The notes: a model not told the origin generated them from the sequence alone. A stretch of 64,000 nucleotides of DNA from Chitinispirillum sp. (GCA_007115975.1 SKJJ01000140.1:1-64000); one strand, 5' to 3'; shown: positions 30,084 through 40,719, counted from the first letter of the stretch. A program made the numbers and translations.

Positions 30084-30647
30084 ATGGGAACAGTAAGTAC
30101 AAACGAATTCAGAAAAAAACTAAAGGTAATAATGGATGGACAACCGTGGATAATCGTTGAAAACGACTTTGTAAAACCGGGAAAAGGACAGGCCTTCAGC
30201 AGAGTAAAGCTTAAAAACCTCATCACCGGAAGAGTTCTGGATCGTACCTTTAAATCGGGTGAAACAATGGAGACCGCTGATGTGACCAGTGCAGCCATGC
30301 AGTTTCTCTACAGTGATGGTTCCAGTTACAGCTTCATGAATTCTGAGAATTTCGAGCAGATCGAAATTTCCAAAGAGCAGCTTGGTGATGATGTCAAGTG
30401 GCTCAAAGAGGGCGTGGAGTGCGAGGTGGCATTCTGGAACAGTCAGGTAATATCCGTGGCTCCCCCGACATTTATGGAATTTGAAATAACCTACACAGAG
30501 CCTGCAGTTAAGGGTGACACCGCTACCAACGTAACAAAAAAAGCAACTATCGACACGGGGTATGAAGTTGATGTGCCGTTATTTGTCAACGTTGGCAACA
30601 GAATAAAAATCGACACCCGCACCGGTGAATATCTTGGTCGCGTATAA
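30084..30647 (+). CDS. efp: Translation elongation factor P
   Basis: A 187-residue EF-P that relieves ribosome stalling at polyproline. Lys34 sits in FVKPGKGQAFSR, exactly at the position that is beta-lysylated in E. coli. The three beta-barrel domains follow, with the family C-terminus VGNRIKIDTRTGEYLGRV. EpmA lies 36 bp downstream on the same strand and EpmB about 1.7 kb upstream on the other, so beta-lysine modification is expected. AGGGAA precedes the ATG. Confidence 0.95.
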   Translation: MGTVSTNEFRKKLKVIMDGQPWIIVENDFVKPGKGQAFSRVKLKNLITGRVLDRTFKSGETMETADVTSAAMQFLYSDGSSYSFMNSENFEQIEISKEQLGDDVKWLKEGVECEVAFWNSQVISVAPPTFMEFEITYTEPAVKGDTATNVTKKATIDTGYEVDVPLFVNVGNRIKIDTRTGEYLGRV

Positions 30648-30683
30648 CTTTTTCTGTTTTTTTGTCCGGTGGTTTTTCCAACG

Positions 30684-31652
30684 ATGAAGGGCAATGAATT
30701 TTCTGTACAATCGGCCCGCCTGCGGGCCGCTGTTTATGAGCGAATCAGGGCGTTCTTTAAAAGCAGAGATGTGCTTGAAGTAGAGACTCCCATTATGTCC
30801 AGGGGCATTTCAACAGACTGCCATCTGGACATCTTTTCCACTTTTTTTCACCCCGACGGCTTTTCTCAAACAGAAAACAGCACCCCCCTTTTCCTTCAGA
30901 CTTCACCAGAACTGTTGATGAAACGATTGCTCAGCGATGGGTTTCCCGATATATACCAACTCTGCAAAGTATTCAGAAATGGAGAACAGGGGCGCATTCA
31001 TAACCCGGAGTTCACCATGCTTGAGTGGTACAGACGCGACTTTACCATGAGCGATTTCATGAATGAGGTGTACGCCCTTTGCATCTCCGTACTGGGTAAA
31101 AAGAAGAGTCAATTTATAAGGTATGAAAATGTGTTCTCCACTACCACAGAGCTTAATCCACTGAAATCATCGTTTGATGAACTACTCTCTTTTTGCAAAA
31201 AAAAAGGGACCGATCCGGTTCACTGTTCATCCAAAACCGACCTGCTTAACTTTATGATGAGTGAGTATGTGGAACCTGCTATGGATCAGGACACACTGGT
31301 TTTTGTGCACGACTTCCCCCGCGAACAGGCAGTTTTCGCAAGGATCAACCCAAATGATCATCGCACAGCGTTACGGTTTGAACTATACCATAAGGGGTTA
31401 GAACTCTGCAATGGGTGGGAGGAACTTGCAGGAGCGGACTGTAAAGAGATCCAATCACGGATGGAACTGGAGAACACGCTTCGAGCACAAAGGGGAAAAC
31501 CCCTTTTGCCGGTGAACGACAATTTCCTTGATGCTGCTGGTATGTTGCCAGCCTGTTCCGGAGCGGCCCTTGGTGTGGACAGGCTTGTTATGGTTGCATT
31601 GGGGGTGCGGTATATTGATGGGGTGCTCTCTTTTGATTTTAAAAACTGCTGA
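30684..31652 (+). CDS. epmA: EF-P--(R)-beta-lysine ligase EpmA (GenX/PoxA)
   Basis: About 322 residues, corresponding to the catalytic core of class II lysyl-tRNA synthetase without the anticodon-binding domain. Visible motifs are EVETPIMS (motif 1), FRNGEQGRIHNPEFTMLEWYR (motif 2 region) and GAALGVDRLVMVALG (motif 3). It activates beta-lysine and attaches it to Lys34 of EF-P. The frame opens at a GTG (30669). The ATG at 30684 matches the usual N-terminus better, but neither start has a clear Shine-Dalgarno. It follows efp directly and is almost certainly co-transcribed. Confidence 0.9.
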   Translation: MKGNEFSVQSARLRAAVYERIRAFFKSRDVLEVETPIMSRGISTDCHLDIFSTFFHPDGFSQTENSTPLFLQTSPELLMKRLLSDGFPDIYQLCKVFRNGEQGRIHNPEFTMLEWYRRDFTMSDFMNEVYALCISVLGKKKSQFIRYENVFSTTTELNPLKSSFDELLSFCKKKGTDPVHCSSKTDLLNFMMSEYVEPAMDQDTLVFVHDFPREQAVFARINPNDHRTALRFELYHKGLELCNGWEELAGADCKEIQSRMELENTLRAQRGKPLLPVNDNFLDAAGMLPACSGAALGVDRLVMVALGVRYIDGVLSFDFKNC

Positions 31653-33426: not shown

Positions 33427-34722
33427 TCACGACTTACTCTGAAAACGCCAGTCGAGAATCCGTTCAGAAACGGGCATTTTACCCCGAAGCGATCGTATCG
33501 TGTTTACATTGGAGATCAGGACCGGAAAAAACTCCCCTGTTACTTCTCTTAATTTGGTTGAGATGGTTTCTACCATTGAAGCTGGAGTAGCTACATGTAT
33601 TGACACTCTGTCTGATCTGGAGCTGTCATCCTCGATAACTATCACATAGTCGTTTATCCCCTCAAGCTCATCAAGGGCATTGATCAAGGTGAGAGGAAAG
33701 ATGACACCCTTCTCTTTTTTGATCAGCTGATCTTTACGCCCAAGTATCGGCCCGATTCGGTCGGAATTTCTTCCGCACTCGCATCTGCCCGGTATTTTAA
33801 AGGTGATATCCCCGGTTTGGAAGCGGACAAGCGGTATCCCCTCAACACCAAACGGTGTGGCGACAAGCTCACCGGGAGTTCCATCCTTAACAGCATCTCC
33901 ACATTCATCCACAATTTCTGTATACACAAGTACCGGGATACAATGAGCACCGCTTCGAAAGGAACAATCACAGTAGGGTGCAGATACCTCAGTAGTACCA
34001 TACATGGAGAATACTTGTGCTCCCCAGATCAGTTCATTTTCAACACTCACTGGATCAAGCTCCATATTCCGGGTTCGCACGCTCTCCTTTGTACACAAAA
34101 GTTTTGTAACAGAGCAGTTTTCAGTACCGTATCCGCCTTTGTTTAATTCCTTTCCAAGGTTCCTCAGCAGGGATGGCTCTCCAACCACTACCGTGGGCTT
34201 GAGGTGGTCGAGGTACATTTTCAACTTTTCAGCAGAGACTCCCGTGCCTGCACGCACGGCATTGGCACCCATAGATATCACCCCTCTGTAACAGCCCATT
34301 GCCGAAAAACTGGGAGATTCCAGAGCAGAAAGAATCAGCACCGTATCATTTTTTGATACCTCACAGCGATGCAAAGAGATGGCGTTTCCATAGGCTAGTC
34401 GCTCAAGGTCATTTCGTGTAAATGTAAACAATTTGGGTTTGCCCCGGAAGCCGGTATTCATAACCGATTCCACAACATGCTCTTGAGTAACATTGGAAAA
34501 ACAACTTAGGTTTTCCCACATGGAAGTGCCGCATGTAAATGGCAGCTTTGAGAAATCTCCCAGAGACTGGATATCTCCGGGGTCTACACCTTTTAGGAAA
34601 TCGCGGTAGTAGGGGGATATTTCAAACAGGTGTTTTATATGATTACGCAAAGCTCTGAGGGTCTTTGCTACAATCTGTTCTTCAGAAAGGGATTCCCAGG
34701 AAAATTCAGGATTAAAAAGCAA
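33427..34722 (-). CDS. PaaK-like acyl/aryl-CoA ligase family adenylating enzyme
   Basis: About 431 residues of the phenylacetate-CoA ligase (PaaK) group. Features are YYRDFLKG, TGFRGKPKLFTFTR (degenerate phosphate loop), GANAVRAGTGVS, FSMYGTTEVSAPYC (adenylation motif), VRFQTGDI and GRKDQLIKKEKGV near the C-terminus. It should activate a carboxylic acid as an acyl-adenylate; whether CoA or a protein is the final acceptor is unknown. The frame is open to 34758, but GGAGGT seven bases before a TTG at 34722 marks the likely start. It lies on the same strand as radC and the lipoyl-KASIII/E1 pair, so a link to acyl-group supply is possible. Confidence 0.78.
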   Translation of the reverse strand: MLFNPEFSWESLSEEQIVAKTLRALRNHIKHLFEISPYYRDFLKGVDPGDIQSLGDFSKLPFTCGTSMWENLSCFSNVTQEHVVESVMNTGFRGKPKLFTFTRNDLERLAYGNAISLHRCEVSKNDTVLILSALESPSFSAMGCYRGVISMGANAVRAGTGVSAEKLKMYLDHLKPTVVVGEPSLLRNLGKELNKGGYGTENCSVTKLLCTKESVRTRNMELDPVSVENELIWGAQVFSMYGTTEVSAPYCDCSFRSGAHCIPVLVYTEIVDECGDAVKDGTPGELVATPFGVEGIPLVRFQTGDITFKIPGRCECGRNSDRIGPILGRKDQLIKKEKGVIFPLTLINALDELEGINDYVIVIEDDSSRSDRVSIHVATPASMVETISTKLREVTGEFFPVLISNVNTIRSLRGKMPVSERILDWRFQSKS

Positions 34723-34813
34723 TGAAAGTACCTCCGGGGGAGAATAATGGCGATGCAAACAACTTCAAGGTAGAAAATACTTTTTTTCCAGCATCAAAAA
34801 AACCAATTTTCTT

Positions 34814-35572
34814 CTAGCGGGGCCACCTGCTGCTCTCGCGCATACTTACCACCTGGGCTTTTGAGATGATGAGATGGTCCAGCAGAGGGATCTCGAGCAG
34901 TTTCCCTATGGTGAAGAGTCTTTCGGTTATAAGCCAGTCTGCCTCAGAGGGGTTAAGCCCTCCCCCGGGATGATTATGAGCGAGAATAAAGGATGCTGCA
35001 CCGCACTTAATCGCACGTTCAATCACCGCCCTGGGGTAGACTGCACACTGGTTAACGGTGCCCTCACAGACCACCTCAGTGGTAAGGATATGATTTGCGT
35101 TATCCAGAAACAGTGCTGCAACGTACTCATCCCGGCGGTGCCCGTAGTTAAACCTGAAATACTCCTCCACATCTCTTCGATGTGATATTACCGGTTGACT
35201 CAGACACTTCTCTTTGAGACAATAAGCAATTATATCCCGAAGCAGAGGAAAAAAAGCTGCCGACCGGTCCCCCACACCTTTTACACTTGCAAGTTCTGAA
35301 GGGGAAACATTTATAATGGTGCTAATGCAGTTATATCTGGCTAAAAGTTCCCTTGCTATTGGTTTTGTATCCCTTCTCGGTATAAGAAATGACAGCAAAA
35401 ACTCCAGTATTTCATGTTCATGAAAAGAGGTCAGTCCACCGGTGAGAAATTTTTGGAGCAACCGTTTTCGATGTCCGTGGTGATGGGGTACAGGTGCCAA
35501 CTGGTGTGAATCACCATTTTTGTGGGCCACGCCAGCTCCAGCCGGCTTTTCGCTTGAAGAGTGAATTTTCAT
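34814..35572 (-). CDS. radC: RadC/JAB-domain protein
   Basis: A 252-residue RadC family protein. N-terminal helix-hairpin-helix elements lie around PSELASVKGVGDRSAAFF. The C-terminal JAMM/MPN metal site is in FILAHNHPGGGLNPSEAD, with family landmarks LFLDNANHI and VYPRAVIERAIKCGAAS. The family was named for DNA repair, but its true activity is unsettled. The N-terminus carries a His-rich extension (PVPHHHGHRKR). GAGGTGG lies before the ATG. Confidence 0.9.
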   Translation of the reverse strand: MKIHSSSEKPAGAGVAHKNGDSHQLAPVPHHHGHRKRLLQKFLTGGLTSFHEHEILEFLLSFLIPRRDTKPIARELLARYNCISTIINVSPSELASVKGVGDRSAAFFPLLRDIIAYCLKEKCLSQPVISHRRDVEEYFRFNYGHRRDEYVAALFLDNANHILTTEVVCEGTVNQCAVYPRAVIERAIKCGAASFILAHNHPGGGLNPSEADWLITERLFTIGKLLEIPLLDHLIISKAQVVSMRESSRWPR

Positions 35573-35696: not shown

Positions 35697-37016
35697 CTAC
35701 CACTCAAGCGATAGACCTGCAGCGGTGATTCCTGCACCTACGGTACAGAATATAACCTTATCACCAGCTTGAAGCCCGTTTTCTATTTCCGAAAGGGCAA
35801 TAGGTATACTTGCGCTTGAGGTATTACCGACTCTGTCGATATTGAGATAAAAGCGTTCAAACGGTATACCGCTTTTTCTCGCTGCAGCCTTGATAATTCT
35901 TCCGTTTGCCTGATGGGGAACAACCCAGCGTACATCGGTTGCTTCCCAGCTGCTTTTAACGATAAGATCCCTCACCAGCGATGAGAAACTCTCAGTTGCA
36001 ACCCTGAAAAGCGATTTACCATCGAGACGAACCCAGGGATCAAAATCAGTTGAATTATCAGGGACCTCATATCCCGGATAATGACGTCTGGCCATATGCA
36101 GGCCATCACTGTCGGCACTGAGGATCTCCTGTTTTATAAGATGGCCCGGTCGTGATCCGGAAATAACCGTAGCACCGGCACCATCACCAAAGAGAAAATA
36201 GGTGTCTTTGTCGTTTTTATCAAGCACCCTTGACTGCATATCAACCGCAGTAACCAGTACATTATCTGCAATCCCTGAAAGAATAAGGCCCTTTGCCATG
36301 GATATTCCATACAACCACCCGGAACACGCTGCATTCAGATCAAAGGCAGGTATCCCCCTTGCACCCAGTTTCCCCTGCAGAATACAGGCAGTGGATGGCA
36401 TAACCACATCTGGGGTGGTCGTTGACACCACTATGGCACCAATATCCTTTGGGGTAAGCCCGGAGCGTTCAATGGCCTTCACCGAAGCCTGATAGGCCAT
36501 ATCGGATGGCTTTTCATCTTGAGCCGCCCAGCGCCTCTCCTTGATCCCTGTCACCCCGAAAACATACTCTTCTGTTATATCCGGAAACTGGGAGAGGAGT
36601 TCGTCTGTTTTAACCACACGGTCTGGAAGATAGATACCGATACCTAACATTGAGATATCTTTCACAGTGGTTTTTTCCGGATTTCCCATAGAGAGTTCCA
36701 TTTTGGGTACGCCCGCCTCTTGCGCCGTGCTCTCTGTGGCAGGAGAAACAACTGATCGCATCGACTCATCGCTGGTGGTAATCTCCATGACCGCATTTTC
36801 AAAAGGAACCGACGTCCCCTCAGGATAGAGCAACTTCCCTACCGTGCCGTCACAAGGAGCCTCAAAATCGAAGGTTGATTTTGCACTCTCCACCTCTGCA
36901 AGAACCTGCTCTTTCTTAAAGAGATCACCCTCACCTACAAGCCACTTAATTATTGTTGCCTCTGTCTCAGCTGCAGCCTGAGCCGGAAGATAAATTTTGG
37001 TGTTAAAGGAACTCAT
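35697..37016 (-). CDS. Lipoyl-domain / ketoacyl-ACP synthase III fusion
   Basis: A 439-residue fusion. Residues 1-80 are a lipoyl (biotinyl-lipoyl) domain with the modification lysine Lys46 in EVESAKSTFDFEAP and the hairpin CDGTVGKLLYPEGTSV. A 40-residue linker (SPATESTAQEAG) leads to a complete FabH-type synthase at about 121-439, with catalytic Cys231 (LNAACSGWLYG), His368 (VVPHQAN) and Asn398 (RVGNTSSAS). FabH condenses an acyl primer with malonyl-ACP. The start overlaps the stop of the E1 gene (ATGA at 37013-37016). I infer that E1 loads an acyl group on the lipoyl arm and passes it to Cys231 in cis. No E2 or E3 gene is nearby. Confidence 0.9.
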   Translation of the reverse strand: MSSFNTKIYLPAQAAAETEATIIKWLVGEGDLFKKEQVLAEVESAKSTFDFEAPCDGTVGKLLYPEGTSVPFENAVMEITTSDESMRSVVSPATESTAQEAGVPKMELSMGNPEKTTVKDISMLGIGIYLPDRVVKTDELLSQFPDITEEYVFGVTGIKERRWAAQDEKPSDMAYQASVKAIERSGLTPKDIGAIVVSTTTPDVVMPSTACILQGKLGARGIPAFDLNAACSGWLYGISMAKGLILSGIADNVLVTAVDMQSRVLDKNDKDTYFLFGDGAGATVISGSRPGHLIKQEILSADSDGLHMARRHYPGYEVPDNSTDFDPWVRLDGKSLFRVATESFSSLVRDLIVKSSWEATDVRWVVPHQANGRIIKAAARKSGIPFERFYLNIDRVGNTSSASIPIALSEIENGLQAGDKVIFCTVGAGITAAGLSLEW

Positions 37017-39013
37017 TTTCTATTACCCTCTCCAAGTATCTTTGTAATGGCAGCGGTGATTTTGTTCTGATCAGGCAGATAGGCACTTTCCAGCTCTTTT
37101 GCAAAAGGAACCGGTGAATCGGCAGTACTTACCAGTTTTGGGGGAGATTTCATAGAGCCGAAGCACTCCCTTGTGACCAGTGATATAAATCGATCACCCA
37201 GCCCGGCAGTTTCGCCACTCTCCTGAACAACAAGCAACCGGCCAGTAGACCTGACAGACTCCACTATCGGATCAAAGTTCAAAGGGTTTAATATAAATGG
37301 ATTCCATACCGATGCGGAACAGTTATTATTCTCAACCGCTTTAAGCGTCTGTTCAACCATGGCTCCCATGGCCACAATAGTCAGATCCGTTCCCTGTGTG
37401 TACTGTCTGGGACGATAGACCCGGCTCAAATCACCATCAAAATCGATATCTGCCTGTTGTCCCCAATAGAGCATTTTGTGCTCCATTACGATGCATGGGT
37501 TGGGATCATGAAATCCGGCAAGCAATGCCTCATAAGTCTCCTGAGGAGTCACCGGATAGAGCAGTTTAACACCTGGAAACCTTGTCCAGAGCCCCTCAAA
37601 TTCCCCCGAATGGAATGCACCCAAAGTAATTCCAGCACCACAGGGCAGCCTAAAGAGAAGTGGTGCGGCTTTTCCTGTGCGGTAAAACCATGTACCGCAG
37701 TTAAGCCCCAACTGTGTCACGGCTTCGGTAGCGAAATCGGCAAACTGGAACTCCATAATGGGCTTTGTACCAGTTTGTGAAGCCCCGAGACAGAACCCCA
37801 CCGTGGCAGACTCACAAATAGGCATATCAACTACTCGTTTGGGACCATGGTTTTTTATCAGCCCTTTGCAGGTTTTGAAAGCAGAACCATACTCTCCAAT
37901 ATCCTGACCACAAATAAAAGCATCGGAATTTTGTGCAAGGATATGATCCAGAGCAGTATTTACAGCATTAAGGTTTCTCACCTTTTTTACAGAGAATGGT
38001 TGTACGGAGGGCATTTCAGTTTTACAATAGACACCGCCGGAATGGACAACAGGGTCGGGTCTTTGGCATTTGACCGCCTCTGCAGTTAAGGCATCCAGCT
38101 CATCAGAGAGCTGTTTTTCAAGCACTCCAAGATCCTGCTCTGAAAAAATACCCTGCTCTATAACCAGCTTTCTTGCTGCAGCAACCGGATCCATTGTTAG
38201 AAGCTTGGCTTTATGCTCATCCCCGACATATTCACAGGTATCGTATACCGCATGCCCTTCAATGCGAGCGGTTCGTGCCTCGATAAGAACCGGCTGAGGA
38301 TTCTCTGCCATCAATTTCAGTGAATCGGTAACGGCACTATACACCTCCCAGGGATCCAGACCGTTAATCGTGCGCCCGGTTATGCCGTAGCCCTTGGCAC
38401 GATCAGAAAGTTTCTCACAGTTAAACTGAACCGTGGTGGGGGTGGAGAATGCATACCCGTTATTTTGAATCAGGAAGATAACCGGTACTTTTTGAACGGA
38501 AGCAAGGTTAAGTGATTCGTGAAAGTCACCGGTACTGCTTCCGCCATCGCCAATTACAGTCAACCCGAAGGCATCTTCACCATTTTTTCTTGCAGCCCAT
38601 GTACCACCCACAGCAAGTGCAAGCATGTCCCCAAGATGGCTGATCATGGGAAATCTGCGTTTGAAGGCATCTCCATAGTGTACGTTCCCCTCTCTTGCAT
38701 GAGTGGGACTGTCGGCATTGGCCATATGCTGGCATACTATAGAATAGGGAGATGCGCCATTAATGATATGGGAACCGAGATCACGGTGAAGCAGTGCAAA
38801 GATATCTTTTCCCGGCCGAAACGGCATTGCCATTCCAACGGCTGTAGCCTCATTGCCCCTGCTTACCACAACGGTACCTTTTACCATACCCTTACGGAAC
38901 AGCTCTTTGAACCTGGTATCCATTATATAGGTCAGATACATCAGGGGATACGCTTTGGTATAAAACTGCTCCCTTGTCATAACCTCAGGAAAACGAGGTA
39001 TGCTGCTCTGCAA
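37013..39013 (-). CDS. 2-oxoacid dehydrogenase E1, alpha and beta fused (branched-chain type)
   Basis: A 666-residue protein that unites E1-alpha and E1-beta. The alpha part (about 1-310) has the thiamine-diphosphate motif IGDGGSSTGDFHESLNLA and VSRGNEATAVGMA. The beta part (from about 335) shows FICGQDIGEYGSAF, MPICESATVGFCLG, EFQFADFA and CGAGITLGAFHSGEFEG. It decarboxylates a 2-oxoacid and reductively acylates a lipoyl domain. The organisation resembles branched-chain (BkdA/B) or pyruvate enzymes; the substrate is not readable. The frame starts at a TTG (39013) without a good Shine-Dalgarno; an ATG at 38980 (GAGG very close) is an alternative. It overlaps the lipoyl-KASIII gene by 4 bp. 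Confidence 0.9.
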   Translation of the reverse strand: MQSSIPRFPEVMTREQFYTKAYPLMYLTYIMDTRFKELFRKGMVKGTVVVSRGNEATAVGMAMPFRPGKDIFALLHRDLGSHIINGASPYSIVCQHMANADSPTHAREGNVHYGDAFKRRFPMISHLGDMLALAVGGTWAARKNGEDAFGLTVIGDGGSSTGDFHESLNLASVQKVPVIFLIQNNGYAFSTPTTVQFNCEKLSDRAKGYGITGRTINGLDPWEVYSAVTDSLKLMAENPQPVLIEARTARIEGHAVYDTCEYVGDEHKAKLLTMDPVAAARKLVIEQGIFSEQDLGVLEKQLSDELDALTAEAVKCQRPDPVVHSGGVYCKTEMPSVQPFSVKKVRNLNAVNTALDHILAQNSDAFICGQDIGEYGSAFKTCKGLIKNHGPKRVVDMPICESATVGFCLGASQTGTKPIMEFQFADFATEAVTQLGLNCGTWFYRTGKAAPLLFRLPCGAGITLGAFHSGEFEGLWTRFPGVKLLYPVTPQETYEALLAGFHDPNPCIVMEHKMLYWGQQADIDFDGDLSRVYRPRQYTQGTDLTIVAMGAMVEQTLKAVENNNCSASVWNPFILNPLNFDPIVESVRSTGRLLVVQESGETAGLGDRFISLVTRECFGSMKSPPKLVSTADSPVPFAKELESAYLPDQNKITAAITKILGEGNRK

Positions 39014-39666
39014 AGATTCTATACAGGTATGAACTGCGTTAGTTGAAGAAGTGATAGTTTCCCCCCTAAGATGAGCTATTTCTGTTTAGAAATTGATCGG
39101 GTAAAGTGTAGGATCAAAATAATAAATTCATATGCTTAAGTGAGTGAAATTTATCCGCAACCTGTTTAAATGTTTAAGTTGCATAGTACTGCTGACTGCT
39201 TATGCTTTCTATGGGAAAGCATTTATTCCCGGGGATTGCCGTATGCTGCCTAGAGAGCTTTAAAAGACGGGGATGAGAAATCATTCAGGTTGTGGTGTGG
39301 CTGCAGACTGCTTCAACACCGTACCGAGTGAATTTGCATTTGCCGTTGTGGTATATATTTTGTTGTTATATGAGTTGCCGTTCAGGGCTCTGCTTTGCTT
39401 TTTAATCTGGAGGTTGGGATGAGAGGACAATCTGAATAGCAGATGTACGACATTTATAAGCTATGCCAAAAAAATAACTATCCGCATTGAGTACCTAACA
39501 ACTTTGGAACGGAATAAGGCCAAATGGTTTTTCCCCAGGGCTTGGGTTATGCATAAAATTTCCCAAATAAAAACTCAACAGCGAGGAAATTGCAGCGGGC
39601 CTGCAGGTGAAGAGATCTTTTTTCAAGCGATACCCGATTCTGACCATTTAAAAGAGAGGTGAGTTT
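39014..39666. other. Long intergenic region, divergent promoters
   Basis: About 650 bp without a credible gene. It separates the minus-strand E1 operon from the plus-strand lactate dehydrogenase gene, so two promoters are expected. A perfect 8-bp hairpin (ATGCTTTC-tatgg-GAAAGCAT) lies at 39202-39222. GAGGTGAG before 39667 is the ribosome binding site of the next gene. No repeats shared with the rest of the window were noticed. Confidence 0.5.
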
Positions 39667-40719
39667 ATGAGCGAGAGGATTAAAGTAGCATTTTTTGATA
39701 CGAAACCTTACGACAAAGATTTTTTTGACCGCACCAATGAGAAATACGGCTACGAAATAGCCTATTTCCCTAACCGCCTTGATTCAAGTTCGATGGGACT
39801 TGCTGCCGGTTACGAAAACATTTGTGCTTTCGTAAATGACGATCTCAATGCTGAGGTTATCACAGAGCTTAAAAAAAATGGTACAAGATTGATAGCCCTT
39901 CGCAGTGCCGGCTATAACAATGTAGACCTTAAGGCAAGCTATGGCAAAATCCACATAGTCCGTGTACCGGCCTATTCCCCCCATGCAGTTGCAGAACATG
40001 CGGTGGCCCTCATGCTCTCTCTCAATCGCAAGACCCACAAGGCATATTTCAGAACTAGGGATAACAACTTCTCATTAAATGGTCTTCTGGGATTTGACAT
40101 GAACGAAAAGACCGTCGGTGTAATAGGGACCGGTAAAATCGGTAAGGTCACGGCAACTATTCTCAGGGGTTTTGGCATGAACGTTCTTGCTTTTGATGTC
40201 TATCCCGACAAAGATTTCGCAAAAGAAAACAACGTCCAATACACCGACCTGGCTACACTTTACCAAAAAAGTGATATAATTACCCTGCATTGCCCGCTAA
40301 CACCGGAGAATGTTTACATGATTAATGCAGAGAGTATCTCCCAAATGAAAGATGGAGTGATGATTATAAACACCGGGCGCGGTAAACTGCTTAATACCCA
40401 GGATCTGATAAGGGGGTTAAAATCAAAAAAAATAGGTTCTGCCGGACTTGATGTTTACGAAGAAGAGGGAGACTACTTTTTTGAGGACTTCTCAGCAGAG
40501 GCGATAAGTGATGATGTGCTTGCAAGGCTCCTGTCATTTCCCAATGTACTGGTGACTTCTCACCAGGCATTCTTTACCAAAGAGGCACTCGACCAGATAG
40601 CACTCACAACCCTTGAAAATATACGCAAGTTTCATCAGGAAGGTAATCTTCCCTATGAGATATGCTACCAGTGCAAAAATGGAGATTGCCCTAAACAGGA
40701 AACCGGTCGTTGCTTCTGA
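39667..40719 (+). CDS. ldhA: D-lactate dehydrogenase-type 2-hydroxyacid dehydrogenase
   Basis: A 350-residue NAD-dependent D-isomer-specific 2-hydroxyacid dehydrogenase, most like fermentative LdhA. The substrate arginine and glycine lie in LRSAGYNNVD, the Rossmann motif is VGVIGTGKIGK near 155, and the catalytic Glu/His region includes GLDVYEEEGDYFFED and VTSHQAFFTKEAL. It would reduce pyruvate to D-lactate. It has an unusual C-terminal tail with four cysteines (CYQCKNGDCPKQETGRCF) beyond the normal end. GAGGTGAG lies before the ATG. It is monocistronic. Confidence 0.88.
   Translation: MSERIKVAFFDTKPYDKDFFDRTNEKYGYEIAYFPNRLDSSSMGLAAGYENICAFVNDDLNAEVITELKKNGTRLIALRSAGYNNVDLKASYGKIHIVRVPAYSPHAVAEHAVALMLSLNRKTHKAYFRTRDNNFSLNGLLGFDMNEKTVGVIGTGKIGKVTATILRGFGMNVLAFDVYPDKDFAKENNVQYTDLATLYQKSDIITLHCPLTPENVYMINAESISQMKDGVMIINTGRGKLLNTQDLIRGLKSKKIGSAGLDVYEEEGDYFFEDFSAEAISDDVLARLLSFPNVLVTSHQAFFTKEALDQIALTTLENIRKFHQEGNLPYEICYQCKNGDCPKQETGRCF

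Follow-up and report, generated by a model that had tools for sequence, protein, structure and literature searches.

A lipoyl-FabH fusion paired with a fused E1 dehydrogenase suggests a CoA-free route from 2-oxoacids to fatty-acid primers

What is the role of a protein in which a lipoyl domain is joined to a complete FabH-type ketosynthase, and whose gene overlaps that of a fused E1 2-oxoacid dehydrogenase? The question is raised by positions 35697-39013 of a 64,000-nucleotide stretch of Chitinispirillum sp. DNA (GCA_007115975.1 SKJJ01000140.1:1-64000), called the window below. Fatty-acid synthesis is taught to start from acyl-coenzyme A (acyl-CoA). The initial annotation had proposed that at this locus the acyl group made by E1 passes from the lipoyl arm straight to FabH and is condensed with malonyl-acyl carrier protein (malonyl-ACP), bypassing the E2 acyltransferase and CoA. 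Comparison of sequences across genomes supports that interpretation, and a direct, CoA-free hand-over followed by condensation is probably what the two proteins carry out. The window lies on contig C203 of genome G000, a Fibrobacterota genome bin near Chitinispirillum (3.9 Mb, 97.5% complete), placed in this phylum through its named relatives. The fusion gene and its parts are:

35697-37016, minus strand: lipoyl-FabH fusion gene, 439 amino acids, with ATG at 37016 and the stop codon at 35697-35699
36780-36998, minus strand: lipoyl domain, residues 7-79 (Pfam PF00364, Biotin_lipoyl, E 2.7e-13, above the cut-off), with the Lys46 codon at 36879-36881
36660-36764, minus strand: flexible linker of variable length and sequence, residues 85-119, with disorder predicted at 90-116 and without a peripheral subunit-binding domain (PSBD) in the window form
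35700-36659, minus strand: beta-ketoacyl-ACP synthase III (KASIII)/FabH domain, residues 120-439, with Cys231 (36324-36326), His368 (35913-35915) and Asn398 (35823-35825)

That a lipoyl domain with Lys46 and a complete KASIII share one chain, as first read from the DNA, is agreed on by profiles, invariant residues and an AlphaFold2 model. The FabH part scores 311.9 bits with PRK09352 (beta-ketoacyl-ACP synthase 3) and 292.4 bits with fabH TIGR00747 (NCBIfam, both above cut-off), and the Pfam matches to ACP_syn_III and ACP_syn_III_C fall inside residues 225-439. The model, built with 31 homologues (mean pLDDT 86), consists of the lipoyl domain, a disordered linker at residues 90-116 and a KASIII domain onto which solved FabH structures superimpose with TM scores of about 0.9 or above, up to 0.94 (normalised to the target). 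Lys46, Cys231, His368 and Asn398 are invariant across 31 aligned homologues. The protein has the thiolase fold, the Cys-His-Asn triad and the family profile score above cut-off of a KASIII/FabH. Of the parts of an E2, it has the lipoyl domain with the conserved lysine; a Pfam scan of the protein found neither a PSBD nor the catalytic domain PF00198. Lys46 lies in the context EVESAKS, which is a lipoyl-type motif and not the AMKM of biotin proteins. Biotin on Lys46 was rejected because the motif is ESAK or ESDK and the profile relatives are E2s. The other PF00364 matches in the window genome are one strong match, to a biotin protein with EAMK, and two weak ones, to adaptor proteins of the HlyD/RND type. 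An artefact of assembly or of fusion was also rejected, since the reading frame runs through uninterrupted in 26 genomes as well as in other phyla.

The partner gene lies immediately upstream:

37013-39013, minus strand: fused E1 alpha-beta 2-oxoacid dehydrogenase gene, 666 amino acids as called from TTG; a probable start at ATC 39053-39055 would give 680 amino acids
37013-37016, minus strand: ATGA overlap of the E1 stop with the fusion start, indicating translational coupling
39053-39067, minus strand: likely E1 start region, with the Shine-Dalgarno sequence AGGGGGG at 39061-39067 and the in-frame ATC at 39053-39055

The overlap is of 4 bp, as annotated. E1_dh, Transket_pyr and Transketolase_C (Pfam) lie in a single E1 chain, which keeps the thiamine diphosphate (ThDP) motif GDG-X26-NN and aligns with the Glu and His regions of beta subunits. 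The closest relative of the alpha part in the PDB is human branched-chain 2-oxoacid dehydrogenase.

The two genes occur together. Among 61 Fibrobacterota genomes the full-length fusion occurs in 26, and in 2 more it is cut by contig ends. The fused E1 (at least 54% identity) is found in exactly these 28 genomes, and the other 33 have neither E1 nor fusion. One genome that seemed to carry E1 without the fusion was rejected as such, because its contig stops inside the lipoyl domain. Far from being separate in all relatives, the lipoyl and FabH domains form one chain in Fibrobacterota, Planctomycetota, Sumerlaeota and some of the Opitutae, and the idea of a single-lineage oddity was dropped because the pair recurs in other phyla. 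Whether E1 is always adjacent, a point raised at the outset, has a divided answer: it lies directly upstream of the fusion at every Fibrobacterota, Planctomycetota and Sumerlaeota locus where the contig reaches, and is missing where the fusion is missing, but it is not adjacent in Opitutae. The distribution is patchy. From one planctomycete class 149 genomes were sampled, of which 3 have the pair, and families f7 and f8 of the sampled Fibrobacterota, which may correspond to Chitinivibrio-like and Fibrobacter-like organisms respectively, lack it. Beyond E1 and the fusion the Planctomycetota and Sumerlaeota loci have no evidently shared neighbour, and therefore these two genes make up the functional unit. 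That the two proteins work together can be held with high confidence.

The Opitutae form relates the fusion to classical E2 proteins. In Pelagicoccus and Opitutaceae (Verrucomicrobiota) a single chain contains lipoyl domain, PSBD and FabH, the PSBD matching Pfam E3_binding at 39-44 bits (cut-off 23.7; E 1e-9 to 4e-11) between the other two. Other Opitutae encode the lipoyl-PSBD part in an open reading frame of its own, about 155 codons long and immediately upstream of FabH. An even sample of 113 genomes of the class contained the fused form in 6 and the split form in 2. Judged by its domains, the Opitutae form has the architecture of an E2 in which FabH occupies the position of the acyltransferase. 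Although E1 is not its neighbour, all 11 genomes (11/11) carry an orphan fused E1 alpha-beta that stands next to no E2 and is 38-41% identical to the window E1 where aligned. This orphan is present besides E1s of the pyruvate dehydrogenase (PDH) and 2-oxoglutarate dehydrogenase types, and the E2s usually number just two. The orphan E1s group with the window E1, apart from the sampled PDH E1s, in a tree that took in no other branched-chain 2-oxoacid dehydrogenase E1s and in which long branches meet, so that the grouping may not be exclusive.

No PF00198 domain was found in ten fusion-bearing Fibrobacterota genomes, that of the window among them. The only lipoyl-type proteins found in the window genome are the fusion and GcvH, and therefore the fusion is the sole known acyl acceptor for E1 in the genomes without E2. 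The window genome has LipA, an LplA/LipM-like ligase and GcvH. An E3, which the initial annotation expected from elsewhere, is present too: contig C220 encodes a genuine dihydrolipoyl dehydrogenase (TIGR01350, 536.5 bits; cut-off 408.8). Its gene lies just downstream of one for an OlsA-like lyso-ornithine-lipid O-acyltransferase (locus L191, positions 232-2814). Chitinispirillum has been reported to be rich in ornithine lipid.

The CoA site of the FabH domain bears on the nature of its first substrate. E. coli FabH holds the adenine of CoA in a stack between Trp32 and Arg151, with Thr28 contacting this base and Arg36 touching the pantetheine (PMC4606726). These positions were compared, in E. 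coli numbering, between 44 lipoyl-linked FabHs (33 of the window group and 11 from Opitutae) and 78 canonical FabHs, including 20 canonical copies from the window genome and related Fibrobacterota. Whereas the canonical proteins have Trp32 in 78/78 cases and Arg36 in 76/78, both residues are replaced in all 44 lipoyl-linked ones. In the window group they have become Tyr and Val in 33/33 (Tyr151 and Val155 in the numbering of the window fusion), and Thr28 is kept in one protein, being Ile, Val or Leu in the others. The 11 Opitutae proteins have Glu for Trp32, Val or Leu for Arg36, Lys or Arg for Thr28 and His for Arg151. Arg249, Asn247 and the Cys-His-Asn triad are retained throughout. This pattern is to be expected of an enzyme whose first substrate would arrive without CoA, with malonyl-ACP remaining in use. 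The lipoyl-linked FabHs form one clade (support 100/98, midpoint rooting). Each of the 20 Fibrobacterota genomes inspected, that of the window among them, also encodes a canonical FabH whose CoA residues are intact. Fibrobacter and its relatives have further KASIII paralogues without the Trp/Arg signature (seven loci in five genomes), several of them as tandem pairs.

The substrate-binding pocket of the lipoyl-linked FabHs is changed as well, with Met or Val for Phe87, Ala or Ile for Leu189 and Val for Phe304, and would be compatible with a bulkier primer. Anteiso-C15:0 (ai15:0) is dominant in the membranes of Chitinispirillum alkaliphilum, while Chitinivibrio and Fibrobacter are without branched dominants (PMC4814513). 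Lacunisphaera, of the Opitutaceae, has iso-C15:0, anteiso-C15:0 and iso-C14:0 (PMC5303756), and the opitute Coraliomargarita has iso-C14:0 (PMC10288369). This correlation, although between unmatched strains, supports branched primers, and on balance we favour branched-chain 2-oxoacids as the substrate.

In the proposed mechanism, E1 would use ThDP to decarboxylate a 2-oxoacid, most likely branched-chain, and reductively acylate a lipoyl group that we infer to be carried by Lys46. The arm, on its disordered linker of about 30 residues, would then deliver the S-acyl-dihydrolipoyl group by transthioesterification to Cys231 of its own or the partner FabH subunit. Malonyl-ACP would bind, and His368 and Asn398 would aid its decarboxylative condensation with the acyl group; the resulting 3-oxoacyl-ACP would prime a (branched) fatty acid. 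The free genomic E3 would reoxidise the dihydrolipoyl group. FabH would stand in for the E2 acyltransferase, and the acyl group would enter fatty-acid synthesis and not CoA.

Such a complex would be of the known 2-oxoacid dehydrogenase kind with a different terminal enzyme. With the branched-chain and pyruvate complexes, in which E2 consists of lipoyl domain, PSBD and catalytic domain, it shares a ThDP-dependent E1, a lipoyl domain with a modifiable lysine, a flexible linker, a separate E3 and, in Opitutae, the PSBD. It differs in having KASIII in place of PF00198, in lacking the PSBD in the window form and in its acyl acceptor: in place of CoA it would use the FabH cysteine first and malonyl-ACP second. 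Canonical FabHs, including the branched-chain enzymes of Bacillus and Staphylococcus, have the same fold, triad, PHQAN motif and Arg249, but they lack the N-terminal lipoyl domain, the replacements at Thr28, Trp32 and Arg36 and the altered pocket; the fusion stands in its own clade, with a canonical copy alongside it in the genome. The established route to iso and anteiso chains likewise starts from a branched-chain 2-oxoacid E1 and a KASIII, except that there E2 frees acyl-CoA for FabH to pick up, whereas here both steps would take place on one tethered chain.

Of the alternatives, the one that survives best keeps the same mechanism and is compatible with it, and concerns the product, which would prime a special lipid or secondary metabolite (a resorcinol, an aryl-polyene-like compound or a glycolipid) and not bulk membrane fatty acids. 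A set of genes for RadC, a TonB-receptor-like protein of about 800 amino acids, a FlxY-like AMP ligase and a GT2-DUF2062 protein follows the pair in many Fibrobacterota (33427-35572, minus strand, in the window, and five further loci), and the last three would suit such a product. The ligase match (flexirubin family) reached 351 bits at one locus, below the cut-off, and the TonB-receptor-like protein is missing from the genus of the window. Neither Planctomycetota nor Sumerlaeota show these neighbours; a functional link to the four downstream genes was rejected as not general. Furthermore, the Opitutae genes sit among housekeeping genes, no polyketide or fatty-acid synthase genes are adjacent, and there are named relatives with branched membrane fatty acids. 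A specialised product is possible but rather doubtful.

Two further alternatives concern the chemistry itself, and both are improbable. The FabH domain might act as an acyltransferase only, unloading the lipoyl arm onto CoA or holo-ACP without condensation. FabH has a transacylase side activity, the architecture equals that of an E2 with its catalytic domain replaced, and the ten genomes without E2 would be accounted for. Against this, every lipoyl-linked FabH keeps His368 and Asn398, which malonyl decarboxylation requires and simple transacylation does not, and condensation is favoured for that reason; the lost CoA contacts, in turn, speak against CoA as the acceptor. It is equally hard to maintain that the FabH domain takes ordinary acyl-CoA, with the lipoyl domain a docking or regulatory appendage and E1 serving another lipoyl protein: FabHs normally do so, the fold and triad of the fusion are normal and many relatives do have E2s, but both Trp32 and Arg36 are gone from every lipoyl-linked protein, ten genomes offer E1 no detectable E2 to serve, the separate canonical FabH has kept its CoA residues, and E1 and the fusion co-occur strictly.

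Several observations weigh against direct CoA-free transfer from the lipoyl arm. Arg151 is still Arg in 16/33 of the window group. Other KASIII paralogues, taken as a control, also vary at the Trp32 and Arg36 positions, and therefore loss of these contacts fits CoA independence but does not prove it; as a unique signature it was rejected on the same ground. Similarity to the fusion partly guided the choice of the stand-alone FabHs with which it was compared. Two of the ten genomes without E2 are only about 70% complete, the lipoylation genes also serve GcvH, and the fatty-acid data come from named species not matched to the sampled genomes. Finally, the window form has no PSBD, so that docking of E1 and E3 is not accounted for. 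GcvH of the glycine cleavage system is likewise a lipoyl protein without a PSBD, and is reoxidised by a free dihydrolipoyl dehydrogenase, the L-protein; unlike the fusion, it carries aminomethyl groups and has no ketosynthase.

One point of the annotation needs correcting: TTG 39013 is a questionable start for E1, the conserved Shine-Dalgarno sequence with ATC at 39055 being likelier. Most Chitinispirillaceae E1 loci conserve a strong Shine-Dalgarno sequence with an ATC or ATT in frame a few bases on, and in the window and at twelve further loci with such a start no well-placed ATG, GTG or TTG was found. E1 genes of families f3 and f6 begin with ATG. The window E1 probably starts at ATC, to judge from this conservation. 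Start codons of the ATC/ATT type are best known from infC. Such a start together with the ATGA overlap would hold the levels of both proteins low or regulated, and IF3-dependent control is possible. Divergently upstream of E1 lies a gene for a D-2-hydroxyacid dehydrogenase (39667-40719, plus strand), also found near the pair at two other loci; the enzyme might act on the same 2-oxoacids. Elsewhere in the window a gene for elongation factor P is followed directly by one for an EpmA/GenX-like lysyl ligase (30084-31652, plus strand).

The initial annotation knew of no enzyme of this form, and no description of a fusion of a lipoyl domain with FabH, KASIII or another ketosynthase was found in a collection of 5.4 million open-access papers, which leaves most subscription journals outside. 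It appears likely that at least four phyla possess a 2-oxoacid dehydrogenase complex with FabH in the place of E2, and that this complex couples decarboxylation directly, with no CoA thioester in between, to the making of the first carbon-carbon bond in (branched) fatty acids. If so, type II fatty-acid synthesis would have a CoA-independent entry, and anaerobes without any E2 would have a way to branched membrane lipids. The catalytic domain of E2 would be exchangeable for another thioester enzyme, and the fusion would show in nature how 2-oxoacids can be channelled into carbon-carbon bond formation, besides serving as a template for doing so.

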